DNA from: Gemmatimonadaceae bacterium | GTDB lineage: Bacteria > Gemmatimonadota > Gemmatimonadetes > Gemmatimonadales > Gemmatimonadaceae | Length of the DNA stretch: 64,000 nt | Assembly: GCA_037721215.1 (NCBI GenBank) | Contig: JBBJNV010000001.1 | Span: forward strand, 124,001-188,000 | Direction: 5' to 3' | Part shown: positions 15,348 to 22,014 of the stretch, piece by piece | Layout: each line of letters begins with the position of its first letter | Numbering within the stretch: the stretch's first letter is position 1 | Notes under the pieces: model-generated | What the model was told of the DNA's origin: nothing | The model's input: only the letters and a program-made list of their open reading frames with translations | Databases searched by the model: none | Translations under genes and position numbers: made by a program

Positions 15348-17240
15348 TTAAGCCGCGCTGCCGGTCAGCGTCTCTTTGAAGACTTCCAGCGCCAGTTCGA
15401 CCTTGCCGAATGGCGCCGAAACCTGGACTCCCTGCACCGAGGGGCGCACTCGATCGAGCATTTCGCGGGCGATAGCGATTCCTTCCTGAACTCCGTGCTC
15501 CTTCGACTTGTCATTCGCGCGGCGCATGCGCGATATGACGTGATCGGGAACGGTGACGCCGGGAACCTCGTTGGCGAGAAATTCAGCGTTACGCACTGAG
15601 ACTAGAGGCCAGATTCCCGCAATGATCGGAATCCTGTTGCCATCGAGCTTCTCCAGGAACGCCTCGAGCTGTTCCACGTCGAACACCGGCTGCGTAATCG
15701 CGTACTCGGCCCCAGCTTCGACTTTCCACGTGAAGCGCCGGAGCTCGTGAGTGAGATCGATCGCGCCGGGGTTCACACCAACGCCAATCGTGAAGCAGGT
15801 TGGTGCGCCGATGGAATTGCCGCCCGGGTCGAGGCCGTGGTTCAGCTTGTTGACGAGATTGGTGAGGCCGATCGCGTCGATGTCAAATACCGCGGTGGCA
15901 TTCGGGTATGGTCCCATTTTCGGCGGATCGCCGGTGATGATGAGCATGTTCCGGAGCCCGATTGCAGATGCCCCCAGCAGGTCGGAGAGCATGCCGAGCA
16001 GGTTGCGGTCGCGGCAGCAGTAGTGGGTGACCGTTTCGATGCCGACTTTCTGCTCGATCAGCAGGCTGGTTAAAAGGGCTCCCATACGACTTTGCGCGCG
16101 GGGACCATCGGGGACATTGACGGCATCTACTCCCGCGAGCTTGAGAGCTTCTGTGTCGCGGAGCATCTTGCTCGCGTCGACGCCGCGGGGCGGGACGATC
16201 TCTACAGAAGTGAGGAACTCACCGCGCGCGAGCTTTCCGCCAAAGCGCGATCGTTGCTCGAGAGGGATGGGATCCACCCCCTTGTCGCCGGGTGGCGCGG
16301 CGCTACCTCCCAGGCCGACCGCTTTCCTCATCGGCACTCTCGCCTGACGGGGAGAAAGCGGTCGAATGCCTTCGACCATTGCCGCGATGTGTTCAGGTGT
16401 TGTTCCGCAGCATCCACCGACGATTCGCGAGCCTCCCCGAACCAGGTGAGCGGCGTAGGTCCCCATGTATTCGGGACTCGCCATGTACATGCTGCGCCCC
16501 CCGACTTCACGAGGCATTCCTGCGTTCGGCTGAGCGCTGAGCTTGCGCCTCGTGACACGAGTCATTTTCTCGATTGCCTCGAGAATCGTCTGCGGGCCCA
16601 CTGAACAGTTGAGCCCGAGAATGTCAGCACCGAATGCATCGAGCGACTGCGCGATATCCTCGGCGGAGTCACCGAAGGGCGTAAGGCAGTCTACGCCAAT
16701 CGTCATCTGGGCTATCACCGGCATTCCCTGGTCGACCAATCGCGCAGCAAGAATTGCCTGTTCGATTTCGGAAAGATCGCCAAACGTTTCGAGCAGGAAG
16801 AAATCTGCGCCACCGTCTTTCAGTCCCCGCAGCTGCTCAGCGAAAATTTCGCGTGCTTCTTCGAGTGACGTGGGACCGTATGGCTCGAGGCGGATTCCCA
16901 GTGGGCCGACAGCTCCGGCGACGAGCACGTTGTCGCCGGCAGCTTCACGAGCGAGCGTAGCGGCGGCGCGGTTTATCTCGATTACCTGCGATTCGAGTCC
17001 GTAGGGTGTGAGCTTGGTGCGGCTCGCGCCGAAAGTGTTCGTCTCAACTACATCTGCGCCGGCTTTCACATACTCGGCGTGAACTGCCCGAACGAGATCT
17101 GGTGAACGGAGGTTGAGCTCGTCATAACACTGATTGATGAACACGCCGCGGGAGTAGAGCATGGTTCCCATCGCGCCGTCGAAGACGATGACCTGCTGTG
17201 GATCCAGAAGCCGCTGGACGAGGTATGTGCGGTCTGTCAT
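15348..17240 (-). CDS. Bifunctional homocysteine S-methyltransferase / methylenetetrahydrofolate reductase
   Basis: The 630-residue fusion has a homocysteine-binding TIM barrel first (residues ~1-300; zinc Cys in GLNCSVG near 210 and GGCCGTTP near 279), then a MetF-type barrel (~330-620; DAVNVPDGPRAQSRM, MLIITGDPPKMG and YAITQPVFDVEQLEAFLEKL). It should make 5-methyl-THF and can transfer a methyl group to homocysteine, as in the YitJ family of Firmicutes. It begins 19 bases after the metH stop, so the two form one operon presumably controlled by the SAM-II leader upstream of metH. No separate metF is in the window, so this fusion probably supplies methyl-THF to MetH. Confidence 0.93.
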   Translation of the reverse strand: MTDRTYLVQRLLDPQQVIVFDGAMGTMLYSRGVFINQCYDELNLRSPDLVRAVHAEYVKAGADVVETNTFGASRTKLTPYGLESQVIEINRAAATLAREAAGDNVLVAGAVGPLGIRLEPYGPTSLEEAREIFAEQLRGLKDGGADFFLLETFGDLSEIEQAILAARLVDQGMPVIAQMTIGVDCLTPFGDSAEDIAQSLDAFGADILGLNCSVGPQTILEAIEKMTRVTRRKLSAQPNAGMPREVGGRSMYMASPEYMGTYAAHLVRGGSRIVGGCCGTTPEHIAAMVEGIRPLSPRQARVPMRKAVGLGGSAAPPGDKGVDPIPLEQRSRFGGKLARGEFLTSVEIVPPRGVDASKMLRDTEALKLAGVDAVNVPDGPRAQSRMGALLTSLLIEQKVGIETVTHYCCRDRNLLGMLSDLLGASAIGLRNMLIITGDPPKMGPYPNATAVFDIDAIGLTNLVNKLNHGLDPGGNSIGAPTCFTIGVGVNPGAIDLTHELRRFTWKVEAGAEYAITQPVFDVEQLEAFLEKLDGNRIPIIAGIWPLVSVRNAEFLANEVPGVTVPDHVISRMRRANDKSKEHGVQEGIAIAREMLDRVRPSVQGVQVSAPFGKVELALEVFKETLTGSAA

Positions 17241-17259: not shown

Positions 17260-20200
17260 TCATTTATCCGAGCGCGCCTCAGCGAGGGAGATCTCGCCGG
17301 AAGCGGCGCGATCGAGGGCGACGGATTCGTTTATGGAGTCAGTTGCGCTCTCGGCATCGGCAACTTTTCCTGCCCCATCTCCAGCGATCCCTCTGACAGC
17401 GTAGTACTTCGCCTCAGGATGATGGATGATGATCGCCGCCGTGCTTTGTTCGGGCATCAGCTGGAACGCCTCGGTCATCGTCATGCCGAGTGCATCCGTC
17501 GCGGGAAGAAGCTTGAAGACAGTGGCATGATCGTCGAGGTCGGGGCATGCGCCGTAGCCCCATGAGTATCGCTTGCCGCCGCGTGCTGTGTTGGTCGACG
17601 CACCGTCCTCGACTCCCGTCGTTTCAATGTCCAGCTCGCGTTTGATGCGCCGGTGCATCCACTCGGCCGTCGCCTCCGCGGTTTCGACCGAGAGCCCGTG
17701 CGAATAGAAAGCCTCGGTGTACTCATTGGCCCCCTGCAGCTTCTCGAAATGGGTTGTCGCTTCGTTGCCGACAGTCACAACCTGCAGCGGAACGACATCG
17801 ACGTCGCCCGACTCGACAGAGCGGATGTAATCCGCAAGGCACAGCCGCTCTCTGCCCACCATCCTTGGAAAATGGAAGCGCCCGATTTCACGGAGCGAGC
17901 CACCATCGCTGCTGTATGCGGCAGGATCATAGAGAATGATGTCGTTGCCCTGCGATTGCGCCGGGAAATAACCGTATACCGCCTGCGGCTTGACCCATTC
18001 ATGGTGCTCGGCGTCCAACTTCAGACGTGCAAGGGCGGGTTCGAACTCGTCCCGGATCGTGGCTTCGTATTTCTCCCCGGAACCGCGTGCTCCCCATTGG
18101 AGCCGGTAGAGCTCATCGAGGTCAAGAAGGTCGAAGACTTCGCCGACGGGAATGTCCCGAAGCACTCGCGTTCCCCAGAACGGAGGTGCGGGTACGCGGT
18201 TGTTCGCGGCTACGTCGCTTCGCGCGCCCGCCTCATCGCCTCGCGCGATGTCCTTGCCAACATCGGTATGGAGGAAGACATCATTGCGCGCGTCCGTGAG
18301 GTTCTTCGTGACGAACGCATCTCGCCGATCAGAGTCCTGGAGCACGTCCATCGTGTCCAGACCTTCGAACGCGTCCTTGCAGTAGAACACGCCAGACGTG
18401 TACTCGCGTTCGCCGTCCACGAACATGGCGCGACGGCCGAAGCGGCGGTTGATTGCGGCGCCACCGATAAGGACCGGGATTTTCATGTTGCGTTTGTCCA
18501 GCTCCTTCACGCAGAGCGGCATCTGCTTCGATGTCGAGACGAGCAGCGCGCTCAGTCCGATCGCGTCGGCGCCGACTTCGACTGCTTTTTCGAGGATAGT
18601 ATTGACCGGGACTTGTTTGCCGAGGTCGTAGACCGTGTAGCCGTTATTGGAGAGGATCGTGTTGACCAGGGATTTGCCGATGTCGTGCACGTCTCCGTAG
18701 ACAGTCGCGAGAACGACTTTGCCTTTGGTGTAGCCTTCGGCTTTCTCGAGGAACTGCTCGAGGTGTTTGACCGCCTTTTTCATGACTTCGGCGGACTGCA
18801 GAACAAACGGAAGGATCAGCTCGCCGGCGCCAAACTTGTCGCCGACTTCCTTCATCGCGGGGAGAAGGACTTCATTCAGCACTCGTACGGGCGTCTCGCG
18901 GACTCCGGCAGCGTCGAGGTGATCTTCGATCCCTTCCTTCTTGCGGTGGAGGATCATCCAATGGATGCGCTGCTCCGCGGTCATTCCCGCGGTTGGGTCT
19001 TCTTTTTCAGTGGCTGTGCTTTGTCCGTTTCCGCCGACGGTCGAGAAGTACTCGATGAAGTGCTGAAGTGCTTCCGGATTCTTGTTGAACACGAGGTCGT
19101 TGGCGAGATCGCGTTCTCTCTCCGAAATCTCCATGTACGGCTTGATGTGAGCCGGGTTGACGATTGCGGCGTCGAGGCCAGCCGCAACGCAGTGGTGAAG
19201 GAACACCGAGTTAAGCACCGACCGAGCTTCGGGCGTGAGGCCGAAGCTCACATTGGAGACGCCGAGGATTGTCGACACACCGGGAAGCTCGCGCTTGATG
19301 AGGCGGATGCCTTCGATAGTCTCGTGGCCCGAGTTGATCCACTCTTCGTCGCCAGTGGCGAGCGTGAAGGTGAGCGCGTCGTAAATGATGTCTTCAGGGG
19401 CGAGGCCGTACTCGTCTACTACTATCTGGTAGATGGCTTTCGCGACCTCGAGTTTGCGCTCACGTGTTTTTGCCATCCCGACTTCGTCGATCGTGAGTGC
19501 GATAACTGCGGCGCCGTGGGTTTTGACCAACGGAACGACGGCGTCGATGCGGACGCGGCCGTTCTCCATGTTGATGGAGTTGACGATTCCGCGGCCGGGA
19601 ATGTGCTTGAGCGCGGCTTCGATGACGTCAGCTTCGGTGGAGTCGATTACCAGCGGGGTTTCAACACTCATGCTGAGCAGCTTCACGACCTTCGACATCT
19701 GCTCGGCTTCGTCGGCGCGTTCGGTCAGGGCGACGCAGACGTCGAGGACGTGGGCGCCTGAGTCTACCTGGTCGCGGGCGACCTCAAGGATGCCTTCGTA
19801 GTCGTCGGCGAGGAGCAGGCGTTTGACTTTGCGTGAGCCTTGGGAGTTGACGCGTTCGCCGACCAGGAGAGGTGGGGGATCCTGGTGGAGGGTGATGGCG
19901 CGCATCGCCGAGCTTACGCGGGGGACTTTGTGGTGATGGGGGCGGGATCCGTTTCCACCAACTTCGGCCCGGGGGCCGACGCTCTTGCCTTCGATTTCGC
20001 GGACCGCGTTGACGACTGCCTCGAGATGAGCAGGGGTGGTTCCGCAGCAACCGCCAACGATCCGCACACCAAAATCCTGGACGAATTCCGCCAGTGCCTC
20101 GGCCAATGGCCCCGGCTCGAGCGGATAGACGGCTTCACCGATGCCCGTGTTAAGCGGCAATCCAGCGTTGGGAATGACTGAAAGCGGAAGCGTCGCGTTC

Positions 20201-20952
20201 TCTGACAAATAACGAATCGGCTCGCGCATGAGATCCGGTCCCGTCGAGCAGTTGAGACCGATGACATCGACGCCGAGCGATTCGAGCGTCGTCATCGCGC
20301 TCGCGATATCGGTGCCGAGAAGCATGCGCCCCGAGACATCGAGGGTGATCTGCGCCTGAATGGGTATGCGACGCCTCAGCCTGGCGAACAACTGCTCTAT
20401 GCCGGCGATTGCGGCTTTGACCTCGAGGATGTCCTGGGCGGTTTCGATTAGAAGAAGGTCAACGCCCCCTTCCATGAGATATTGCGCCTGATCGTGAAAA
20501 TTCCGGGCGAGCTCCTCGAAAGTAATGTTTCCAAGAGCCGGATCGGAGCTGGATGGAAGCATCCCCGTCGGGCCCATTGACGCTGCAACGAATCTCGGGC
20601 GGCCGGGTGTCGCATACTTGTCGCAGGCGGCCCGGGCAATGCGCGCGGCGGCGATATTTATCTCACGGACATTGTCGCCTAGTCCCCATTCCTCAAGGCG
20701 GCGCGGCGTGCTTTGGAATGTGCACGTCTCAACCACATCGCACCCAACCGCGAGGAACGACTCGTGGATGGCCTGAATTACATCGGGGCGAGTGATGACA
20801 AGGTTGTCATTGCAACCTTCGAGTGACTTTCCGCCGAAATCATCGGGCGTGAGGTTGAAGCGCTGGATGCTCGTTCCCATCGCCCCGTCGTAAACGAGAA
20901 CGCGATTGGCAAGTGCCTGCAGGTAAGAAGAGCCAGTAGGTGTACGAGTCAT
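17260..20952 (-). CDS. metH: Cobalamin-dependent methionine synthase
   Basis: At 1230 residues it has the full MetH set. The homocysteine barrel has zinc Cys in GLNCSTG (~234) and GGCCGTTP (~302). The pterin-binding barrel (~365-620) starts around LLVGERVNSQGSRK. The B12 cap and Rossmann domain carry DVHDIGKSL (His axial cobalt ligand, ~754-762). The C-terminal reactivation domain binds SAM (RGGKRYSWGYGACP and MTMTEAFQLMPEQSTAA). It moves the methyl of 5-methyl-THF to homocysteine through methylcobalamin. A SAM-II-like element and terminator lie directly upstream, so repression at high SAM is expected. ATG 20952 is preceded by a poor Shine-Dalgarno sequence. Confidence 0.96.
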   Translation of the reverse strand: MTRTPTGSSYLQALANRVLVYDGAMGTSIQRFNLTPDDFGGKSLEGCNDNLVITRPDVIQAIHESFLAVGCDVVETCTFQSTPRRLEEWGLGDNVREINIAAARIARAACDKYATPGRPRFVAASMGPTGMLPSSSDPALGNITFEELARNFHDQAQYLMEGGVDLLLIETAQDILEVKAAIAGIEQLFARLRRRIPIQAQITLDVSGRMLLGTDIASAMTTLESLGVDVIGLNCSTGPDLMREPIRYLSENATLPLSVIPNAGLPLNTGIGEAVYPLEPGPLAEALAEFVQDFGVRIVGGCCGTTPAHLEAVVNAVREIEGKSVGPRAEVGGNGSRPHHHKVPRVSSAMRAITLHQDPPPLLVGERVNSQGSRKVKRLLLADDYEGILEVARDQVDSGAHVLDVCVALTERADEAEQMSKVVKLLSMSVETPLVIDSTEADVIEAALKHIPGRGIVNSINMENGRVRIDAVVPLVKTHGAAVIALTIDEVGMAKTRERKLEVAKAIYQIVVDEYGLAPEDIIYDALTFTLATGDEEWINSGHETIEGIRLIKRELPGVSTILGVSNVSFGLTPEARSVLNSVFLHHCVAAGLDAAIVNPAHIKPYMEISERERDLANDLVFNKNPEALQHFIEYFSTVGGNGQSTATEKEDPTAGMTAEQRIHWMILHRKKEGIEDHLDAAGVRETPVRVLNEVLLPAMKEVGDKFGAGELILPFVLQSAEVMKKAVKHLEQFLEKAEGYTKGKVVLATVYGDVHDIGKSLVNTILSNNGYTVYDLGKQVPVNTILEKAVEVGADAIGLSALLVSTSKQMPLCVKELDKRNMKIPVLIGGAAINRRFGRRAMFVDGEREYTSGVFYCKDAFEGLDTMDVLQDSDRRDAFVTKNLTDARNDVFLHTDVGKDIARGDEAGARSDVAANNRVPAPPFWGTRVLRDIPVGEVFDLLDLDELYRLQWGARGSGEKYEATIRDEFEPALARLKLDAEHHEWVKPQAVYGYFPAQSQGNDIILYDPAAYSSDGGSLREIGRFHFPRMVGRERLCLADYIRSVESGDVDVVPLQVVTVGNEATTHFEKLQGANEYTEAFYSHGLSVETAEATAEWMHRRIKRELDIETTGVEDGASTNTARGGKRYSWGYGACPDLDDHATVFKLLPATDALGMTMTEAFQLMPEQSTAAIIIHHPEAKYYAVRGIAGDGAGKVADAESATDSINESVALDRAASGEISLAEARSDK

Positions 20953-20969
20953 GCAAAGCTACCAGAACG

Positions 20970-20989
20970 AAAAAAGCCCACGCGTGGGC
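20970..20989 (-). terminator. Intrinsic terminator in the metH leader
   Basis: GCCCACG and CGTGGGC form a perfect 7-bp self-complementary stem followed on the minus strand by six T residues. It lies 12 bases downstream of the SAM-II-like element and 17 bases before the metH start codon, the layout of an attenuator. A competing hairpin (GCGCT/AGCGC) overlaps the 3' end of the riboswitch and the 5' flank of this stem. Confidence 0.85.
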
Positions 20990-21000
20990 GCTGGGCGAAG

Positions 21001-21050
21001 CGCTTTAGCGGAATATTTAACGTGGCCGCAATTTGCTTGAAATCGCCACG
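21001..21050 (-). promoter_or_regulatory. SAM-II (SAM-alpha) type riboswitch upstream of metH
   Basis: On the minus strand, stem P1 CGTGGC/GCCACG encloses a loop that starts GATTT and ends TTGCG. It is followed by GTTAAA, six bases, and GCTAAAG. These are the conserved blocks of the SAM-II aptamer, in the right order and spacing. The pseudoknot stem by my alignment is AAATT with AATAT, four of five pairs, so it is weaker than in known examples. Position between a promoter and a terminator directly before metH fits SAM-dependent repression by attenuation. Confidence 0.75.
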
Positions 21051-21068
21051 GGATTCGGTTACCTGCAT

Positions 21069-21097
21069 ACGATAGCGGACGGTCAACTTCTATGCAA
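21069..21097 (-). promoter_or_regulatory. metH: Candidate sigma-70-type promoter for the metH operon
   Basis: On the minus strand TTGCAT and TATCGT are separated by exactly 17 bases. Each matches four of six consensus positions. The predicted start of transcription would fall about 10 bases before stem P1 of the riboswitch. It lies inside the long inverted repeat 21071-21116. Confidence 0.45.
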
Positions 21098-21116
21098 GGT
21101 CAAATCCGCCGCTATC
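21071..21116. promoter_or_regulatory. Long inverted repeat spanning the metH promoter, candidate operator
   Basis: GATAGCGG-A-CGG pairs with CCG-CCGCTATC, giving 11 base pairs with one bulged A around a 23-base interior that holds the direct repeat GGTCAA. The arms flank or overlap the candidate -10 and -35 boxes. It could be a binding site for a methionine regulator, or alternatively a hairpin ending transcripts from the SecB-like gene, though no T-run follows. Confidence 0.5.
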
Positions 21117-21213
21117 CAGTCTTTCCGAAGCTCTGACAAGCCTCTGAAATCGCGTCGTCCGGGTCAGAACGATCAGCAGCTGAGCTTTCGGTTTGTCCTG
21201 CCTATGGATTGCT

Positions 21214-22014
21214 CTACGAGGGCATCGCTTTAGCCACTGGTTTCCGTGCTCTCTTTTTCTGTCGCGTTGGCTGCGACGCCTGCTTAAGTGTGAGCCGAGC
21301 CATGAGCGTCGCCAGCGCGGGATCCGCTGCCGCTTGACGAACGCCAGTTGCGTTCTGATCCATGCCGGCGATCAGATGATGTACGTTGATGGGGGGCATG
21401 GTGAATGCACCAAAGTAGCCGCGTGAAGTCAGGGCACTAATGGCTTCTCGAAGGTAGGGCATCAACATCGCAGGGCCGTTCAGCGTCGCGAACGTTTCAA
21501 GCGAAACATCAGGAGTCTCCGTCGGCAGCCTGAACGATCCTACCATGGATACCTCGACCTCCTCCAGCCTTCCGCGGGTCGCGGCAAGGGTGACTCCAAG
21601 AAGCACGTCCATGAACTCGCCTTCCACGAACCGCCAGTCCCACCGGAACGTCACATCACCCAATTCGTCAGCAGGCAGAGTCTCTGTTTCCTGGACCGTG
21701 GCGTACCTGAGGTCCGTCGCAAAGAAGCGAACCGGTACGTAGGTCCTTGAGGCTGGACGCCTGACTTCGATCACGGGGCCAGAACCTTCGAAAGAGACAT
21801 TCGTGCATTTGCTCAGCCACCCGGGCCACAGATTAGCAACTGAGGAAGGCGATTTCCCATATGCGATAGCTGCATCAGGGAGGCGCAGATTCTCGGATGA
21901 TTCCCGGACGTCAGCTACCTCCCCGTGTTGACTCCAAGCGCATGCAACCTCCCCGCCTGCATCCCGAGCCTCCGCTGAAACCCTTCCCACCCCATCAACG
22001 CCCCGCGCGTCCAT
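21214..22014 (-). CDS. SecB-like protein-export chaperone
   Basis: The C-terminal two thirds resemble SecB: a beta-rich core (LLGVTLAATRGRLEEVEVSM) followed by the family helix block MLMPYLREAISALTSRGYF and PPINVHHLIAGM, where SecB has FPYAREAISDLVSRG...LAPVNF. The last ~35 residues are basic. SecB holds unfolded precursors for SecA, and SecB-like proteins also act as chaperones of toxin-antitoxin pairs. The start is uncertain: the frame runs into the 3' end of the GH20 gene for 100 bases, with ATG 22014 or GTG 21990 as starts, while homology-like sequence begins only near residue 50. A frameshift near the start or a rare start codon is possible. Confidence 0.65.
   Translation of the reverse strand: MDARGVDGVGRVSAEARDAGGEVACAWSQHGEVADVRESSENLRLPDAAIAYGKSPSSVANLWPGWLSKCTNVSFEGSGPVIEVRRPASRTYVPVRFFATDLRYATVQETETLPADELGDVTFRWDWRFVEGEFMDVLLGVTLAATRGRLEEVEVSMVGSFRLPTETPDVSLETFATLNGPAMLMPYLREAISALTSRGYFGAFTMPPINVHHLIAGMDQNATGVRQAAADPALATLMARLTLKQASQPTRQKKRARKPVAKAMPS

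Follow-up and report, generated by a model that had tools for sequence, protein, structure and literature searches.

The metH locus and its leader

The window analysed here is a 64,000-nucleotide stretch of a Gemmatimonadaceae genome, and our subject within it is the leader of a methionine synthase gene, read on the minus strand so that positions fall from 5' to 3'. The gene itself (17260-20952, minus strand) encodes MetH, a cobalamin-dependent methionine synthase of 1230 residues; it matches NCBIfam TIGR02082 at 1143 bits (cut-off 1011) and carries the Pfam domains S-methyl_trans, Pterin_bind, B12-binding and Met_synt_B12. This confirms the gene that the original prediction had named as the target of a SAM-II riboswitch. 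After a gap of 19 bases follows a gene for a bifunctional homocysteine S-methyltransferase/methylenetetrahydrofolate reductase (MTHFR) (15348-17240, minus strand; NF006396, 730 bits, cut-off 453), and from this spacing the two genes are likely to be co-transcribed. Upstream of the leader, on the same strand as metH, lies a SecB-like gene (21214-22014, minus strand), in whose product the SecB domain occupies residues 126-214 behind an N-terminal extension.

A SAM-II aptamer upstream of metH

We scanned the whole 64 kb window against all Rfam families with cmscan and find a single match above its cut-off: RF00521 (SAM_alpha, which is SAM-II), aligned over its full length (1-79) to 21059-20985 on the minus strand with 40.6 bits and an E-value of 1.1e-5. 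The curated cut-off (gathering score) of this family is 36 bits, which leaves a margin of 4.6 bits; a single match at this E-value is more than chance would give. A permissive Rfam scan of 20700-21400 returns, beyond RF00521, just sub-threshold matches to unrelated families. The class assignment made from the letters alone is thus upheld by the covariance model.

The anatomy of the element follows that of the class, as judged from the model match and from an alignment of 37 metH leaders (A1). Stem P1 is 6 bp long and joins CGTGGC (21050-21045) to GCCACG (21026-21021), with 99% of cells paired in the alignment. Loop L1 begins with an invariant GATTT (21044-21040). The 3' strand of the pseudoknot stem P2, GCTAAAGCGCTT (21009-20998), contains the conserved GCUAAA and pairs in two parts: in the inner helix the invariant UUGC (21031-21028) meets GC (21009-21008) and AA (21006-21005) around a bulged U21007, and in the outer helix, beyond a 3x3 internal loop, AAGC within L1 (21038-21035) meets GCUU (21001-20998). 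The blocks GAUUU (21044-21040), UUAAA (21020-21016) and GCUAAA (21009-21004) are intact and invariant or nearly so in the 37 leaders. The P1 stem, the P2 pseudoknot and a methionine gene downstream (metH) are the features by which the class is known, and all are present. Every sequence block named in the original prediction sits on the minus strand where it was placed. The imperfect pseudoknot AAATT/AATAT described there was read in the wrong register, and we dropped it for the class register (UUGC/GC(U)AA plus AAGC/GCUU), which is better paired and conserved. Likewise, the span first given to the element, 21001-21050, covers the aptamer core, and the whole leader extends over about 20970-21059.

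The start of the transcript is less clearly marked. A sigma-70-type candidate, TTGCAT (21097-21092) and TATCGT (21074-21069) separated by 17 nt, matches the consensus at 7 of 12 positions, and a consensus promoter scan calls none. The best promoter-like sites of the relatives lie mostly 16-28 nt upstream of P1, with a mean score of 8.41 against 7.25 (sd 0.11) in shuffles, and the candidate stands at this same distance. The promoter proposed earlier is weak; TTGCAT/TATCGT may serve as the leader promoter.

Predicted terminator and antiterminator

Directly after the aptamer we find an intrinsic terminator (20996-20976, minus strand) in which GCCCA (20996-20992) pairs with UGGGC (20980-20976) and CGC (20990-20988) with GCG (20983-20981), one G being bulged and CCAC forming the loop; the computed stability is -11.8 kcal/mol for the hairpin alone and -13.2 kcal/mol on the tail. 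A U6 tract (20975-20970), read from the sequence, follows. The five outer pairs are paired in 97% of cells in the 37 leaders, and the fifth exchanges A-U for G-C. P2 and the terminator have no bases in common. The metH start codon (20952) lies 17 bases past the U tract and 45 bases past P2. The original prediction had a terminator at this place in the form of a palindromic GCCCACG hairpin with T6; the place holds, and the conserved stem is longer than the palindrome, which can form at most 5 pairs around a 4-base loop (-8.0) and so falls some 5 kcal/mol short of that stem in stability.

A third helix connects the two elements. The segment GCGCT (21003-20999), which overlaps the P2 3' strand, is complementary to AGCGC (20992-20988), which overlaps the 5' arm of the terminator, and the two would form an antiterminator hairpin of -6.0 kcal/mol around the loop UCGCCC. 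The exclusion can be followed at single bases: base 20999 has as partner either 21037 (P2) or 20992 (antiterminator), and base 20992 either 20999 or 20980 (terminator). When the tail is folded as it emerges, the antiterminator is the minimum-energy fold until the 3' arm of the terminator is complete, after which the terminator takes over. The predicted antiterminator is thus mutually exclusive with both the P2 3' strand and the terminator 5' arm, and it is conserved: it is paired in 95.6% of cells of the 37-leader alignment, compared with 20-65% when slid. All five pairs are available in 27 of 30 distinct tails and at least four in all 30; a five-pair complement occurs in a mean of 8.7 shuffled tails (maximum 16) and in 3 reversed tails.

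Two leaders (L077 and L109) have CCGC/GCGG in place of GCGC/GCGC. Covariation in the antiterminator is limited to these cases and the fifth pair because GCGC is nearly invariant, and its score against shuffles (18/500) is mildly significant among relatives that are not independent. The inner stem of the terminator keeps its register less well than AGCGC itself is kept, which suggests that the conservation of AGCGC is owed to its upstream partner. With -6 to -7 kcal/mol against -13 for the terminator, the antiterminator is far the weaker structure, so that its action would have to be kinetic or assisted, not an equilibrium effect. Another antiterminator, between CGTGG of P1 and CCACG of the terminator, can be drawn by eye in the window; the relatives have CCTATG and the like at this place, so it is not conserved.

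Conservation before metH in relatives

The nearest relatives that bear a name are Gemmatimonadaceae MAGs, which places the window in Gemmatimonadota. The comparable loci are 56 that carry this MetH type (L055-L109 and L111), all but two of them labelled Gemmatimonad-, and one of which (L103) has no upstream DNA. The SAM-II element is present in all 55 loci with upstream DNA, two of the elements being partial (L108 at a contig end, L088 at an assembly gap). Fifteen complete leaders fall below RF00521 at its curated cut-off, and a covariance model built from the relatives (R1) recovers these at E-values of 1e-12 or better. In four loci from Chloroflexi or Dormibacterota, whose MetH is related, the same model finds no element. 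Among the leaders below the Rfam cut-off are four (L091, L094, L095, L099) in which UUAAUCC or similar replaces UUAAACA after P1; these could represent a variant whose affinity differs.

Pairing is kept across all three conserved helices. Of the alignment cells for P1, P2 and the terminator, 94% are paired, compared with 26-45% after sliding, and changes on both sides of a pair number 18 cells against 10.7 (sd 3.0) in shuffles, a comparison made among relatives that are not independent. The two pairs at which the structures compete illustrate this: 21037:20999 of P2 is G-C in 19, A-U in 9 and G-U in 6 of the 37 leaders, and 20992:20980 of the terminator is G-C in 22, A-U in 6 and G-U in 6.

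A probable transcriptional OFF switch and its alternatives

The leader has, in sequence and conservation, the layout of a terminating riboswitch: a terminator together with an antiterminator that excludes it and shares bases with the strand that the ligand would stabilise. With good confidence we read it as a SAM-II riboswitch that would act as a transcriptional OFF switch, through termination, for metH and the homocysteine-methyltransferase/MTHFR gene behind it. At low SAM the P2 3' strand (21009-20998) would be free, and its GCGCU end would pair with the downstream AGCGC as soon as that is transcribed; the resulting antiterminator would hold the terminator 5' arm until the polymerase has passed, and MetH would be made. 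At high SAM the ligand would bind the H-type pseudoknot and lock the P2 3' strand against loop L1, the antiterminator would be blocked, and the terminator (20996-20976) with its U6 would form, halting transcription 17 bases ahead of the start codon and leaving metH off.

SAM-II elements elsewhere can control translation (PMC5352136; PMC9373788), and SAM binding could instead mask the metH ribosome site, with the hairpin incidental. The phylum itself offers examples of such a layout: some SAM-II leaders of homocysteine-methyltransferase genes lack a terminator, and the ATG comes immediately behind the aptamer (in L006, L008, L009, L011 and L025, before homocysteine-methyltransferase/MTHFR genes, about ten bases after GCTAAA). 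At metH, however, 45 bases separate P2 from the start codon, which makes direct masking unlikely, and the terminator with its U6 stands between, an arrangement conserved in the relatives read. We give translational control here a small chance.

The hairpin could also be indifferent to the aptamer, either as a constitutive terminator or as the end of the transcript of the SecB-like gene, which lies upstream on the same strand (21214-22014). A precedent is the Sinorhizobium meliloti metA leader, whose terminator is predicted to be unaffected by SAM binding (PMC9373788). Against this stand two observations: in every relative that was read the hairpin accompanies both the aptamer and metH, and the antiterminator ties it to the P2 strand. 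This reading is about as improbable as translational control.

Less probable still is that the element responds to another ligand, such as SAH, or belongs to a related class (SAM-V, SAM/SAH). SAM-V and SAM-II have core features in common. Genes for MetH are found in SAH-responsive regulons elsewhere (PMC4239095). The Agrobacterium tumefaciens SAM-II, however, showed no response to 1 mM SAH (PMC1273637), RF00521 alone among the SAM and SAH families is reported here even at a permissive threshold, and the SAM-II consensus blocks are intact. A chance resemblance, conceivable for a short motif that scores little above the Rfam cut-off, has an E-value of 1.1e-5 in the window against it and is already refuted by conservation of the element in 55 of 55 comparable loci.

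Relation to known SAM-II riboswitches

The proposed terminating SAM-II switch belongs to a familiar class and is unremarkable within it; what it adds is a host phylum, the metH target and a readable antiterminator. The founding description of SAM-II (Corbino et al. 2005, PMC1273637) has the same P1, H-type pseudoknot P2 and GAUUU, UUGC, UUAAA and GCUAAA blocks, a promoter-like site shortly before P1 and, in many members, an intrinsic terminator between P2 and the ORF. A termination mechanism is therefore already known, and S. meliloti metZ is likewise predicted to be terminated upstream of the gene (PMC9373788), so that the arrangement is not the exception for SAM-II that the original prediction took it to be. 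The leader differs from the elements of the founding paper in its host phylum, its metH target, its short L1, a terminator that begins one base past P2 and an explicit antiterminator drawn from the P2 3' strand; it differs from the S. meliloti element in target (metZ there, metH here) and host (Alphaproteobacteria there, Gemmatimonadota here). In the study of Leyn et al. 2014 (PMC4239095), SAM_alpha is confined, among Proteobacteria, to Rhizobiales and Rhodobacterales, and its targets are metY, hom, metA, metX, metC and metW; the aptamer family and its association with methionine genes are the same, whereas metH is not among the targets named there.

Our open-access literature search found nothing joining SAM-II with Gemmatimonadota, with a metH target or with its spread there; earlier notice outside the open-access literature is possible. 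A textbook riboswitch class, described mainly from Alphaproteobacteria, is seen here in wide regulatory use in a phylum that has received little study, with metH added to its targets. The leader is also compact, at about 90 bases, with aptamer, antiterminator and terminator readable from an alignment, which makes co-transcriptional switching by SAM-II directly testable.

SAM-II across Gemmatimonadota

SAM-II is present in two-thirds of the sampled Gemmatimonadota genomes (202 of 298). By best tblastn match of the genes behind about 130 sampled leaders, a sample that is non-random and holds many same-genus loci, the downstream genes encode MetH (54), homocysteine methyltransferase/MTHFR (18), MetF (16), MetY (10), homoserine dehydrogenase (5) and PanB (4 distinct loci), so that methionine-synthase genes are the commonest target in this sample. 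Proteins resembling MetX follow several further leaders.

In 150 distinct SAM-II leaders of the phylum, pairing between the P2 3' strand and the segment downstream is stronger within a leader (-9.70) than between leaders (-9.00, sd 0.12), the best of 1000 permutations reaching -9.38. In the leaders of MetX, MetY, Hom, MetF and PanB it is loop L1 that complements the terminator region, for example as GCCGCC/GGCGGC or GGAGGC/GCCUCC; tested over all leaders, this pairing gives -9.15 against -8.43 (sd 0.14), values uncorrected for kinship. These complementarities suggest two antiterminator designs among SAM-II leaders, a lead in which relatedness is uncontrolled. It is a tentative proposal, to which we would give a little less than an even chance, that in Gemmatimonadota SAM-II controls the transcription of methionine and one-carbon genes generally, by two designs that are interchangeable, the antiterminator being drawn from the P2 3' strand in metH leaders and from L1 and the P2 5' strand in those of metX, metY, hom, panB and metF.

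The source genome has two SAM-II matches. The second (G000:C3:157728-157803, minus strand; 52.7 bits) lies before panB (read in L214), and downstream of this panB are a threonine-synthase-like PLP gene, a GHMP (probably homoserine) kinase, a ThiS-like sulfur carrier and a ThiF-rhodanese protein. That SAM should control pantothenate and threonine genes together with a sulfur carrier would be unexpected. Four genomes have a SAM-II leader before panB (L001, L007, L017, L136).

Behind one leader, the first long frame (L183:3-1175, minus strand) resembles a TonB-dependent receptor plug domain. In six others (L010, L013, L174, L178, L186, L212) the terminator loop contains a stretch almost perfectly complementary to much of the strand that binds the ligand (GCUAAAACGC with GCGUUUUAGC in L174), which amounts to an extended version of the antiterminator described above.
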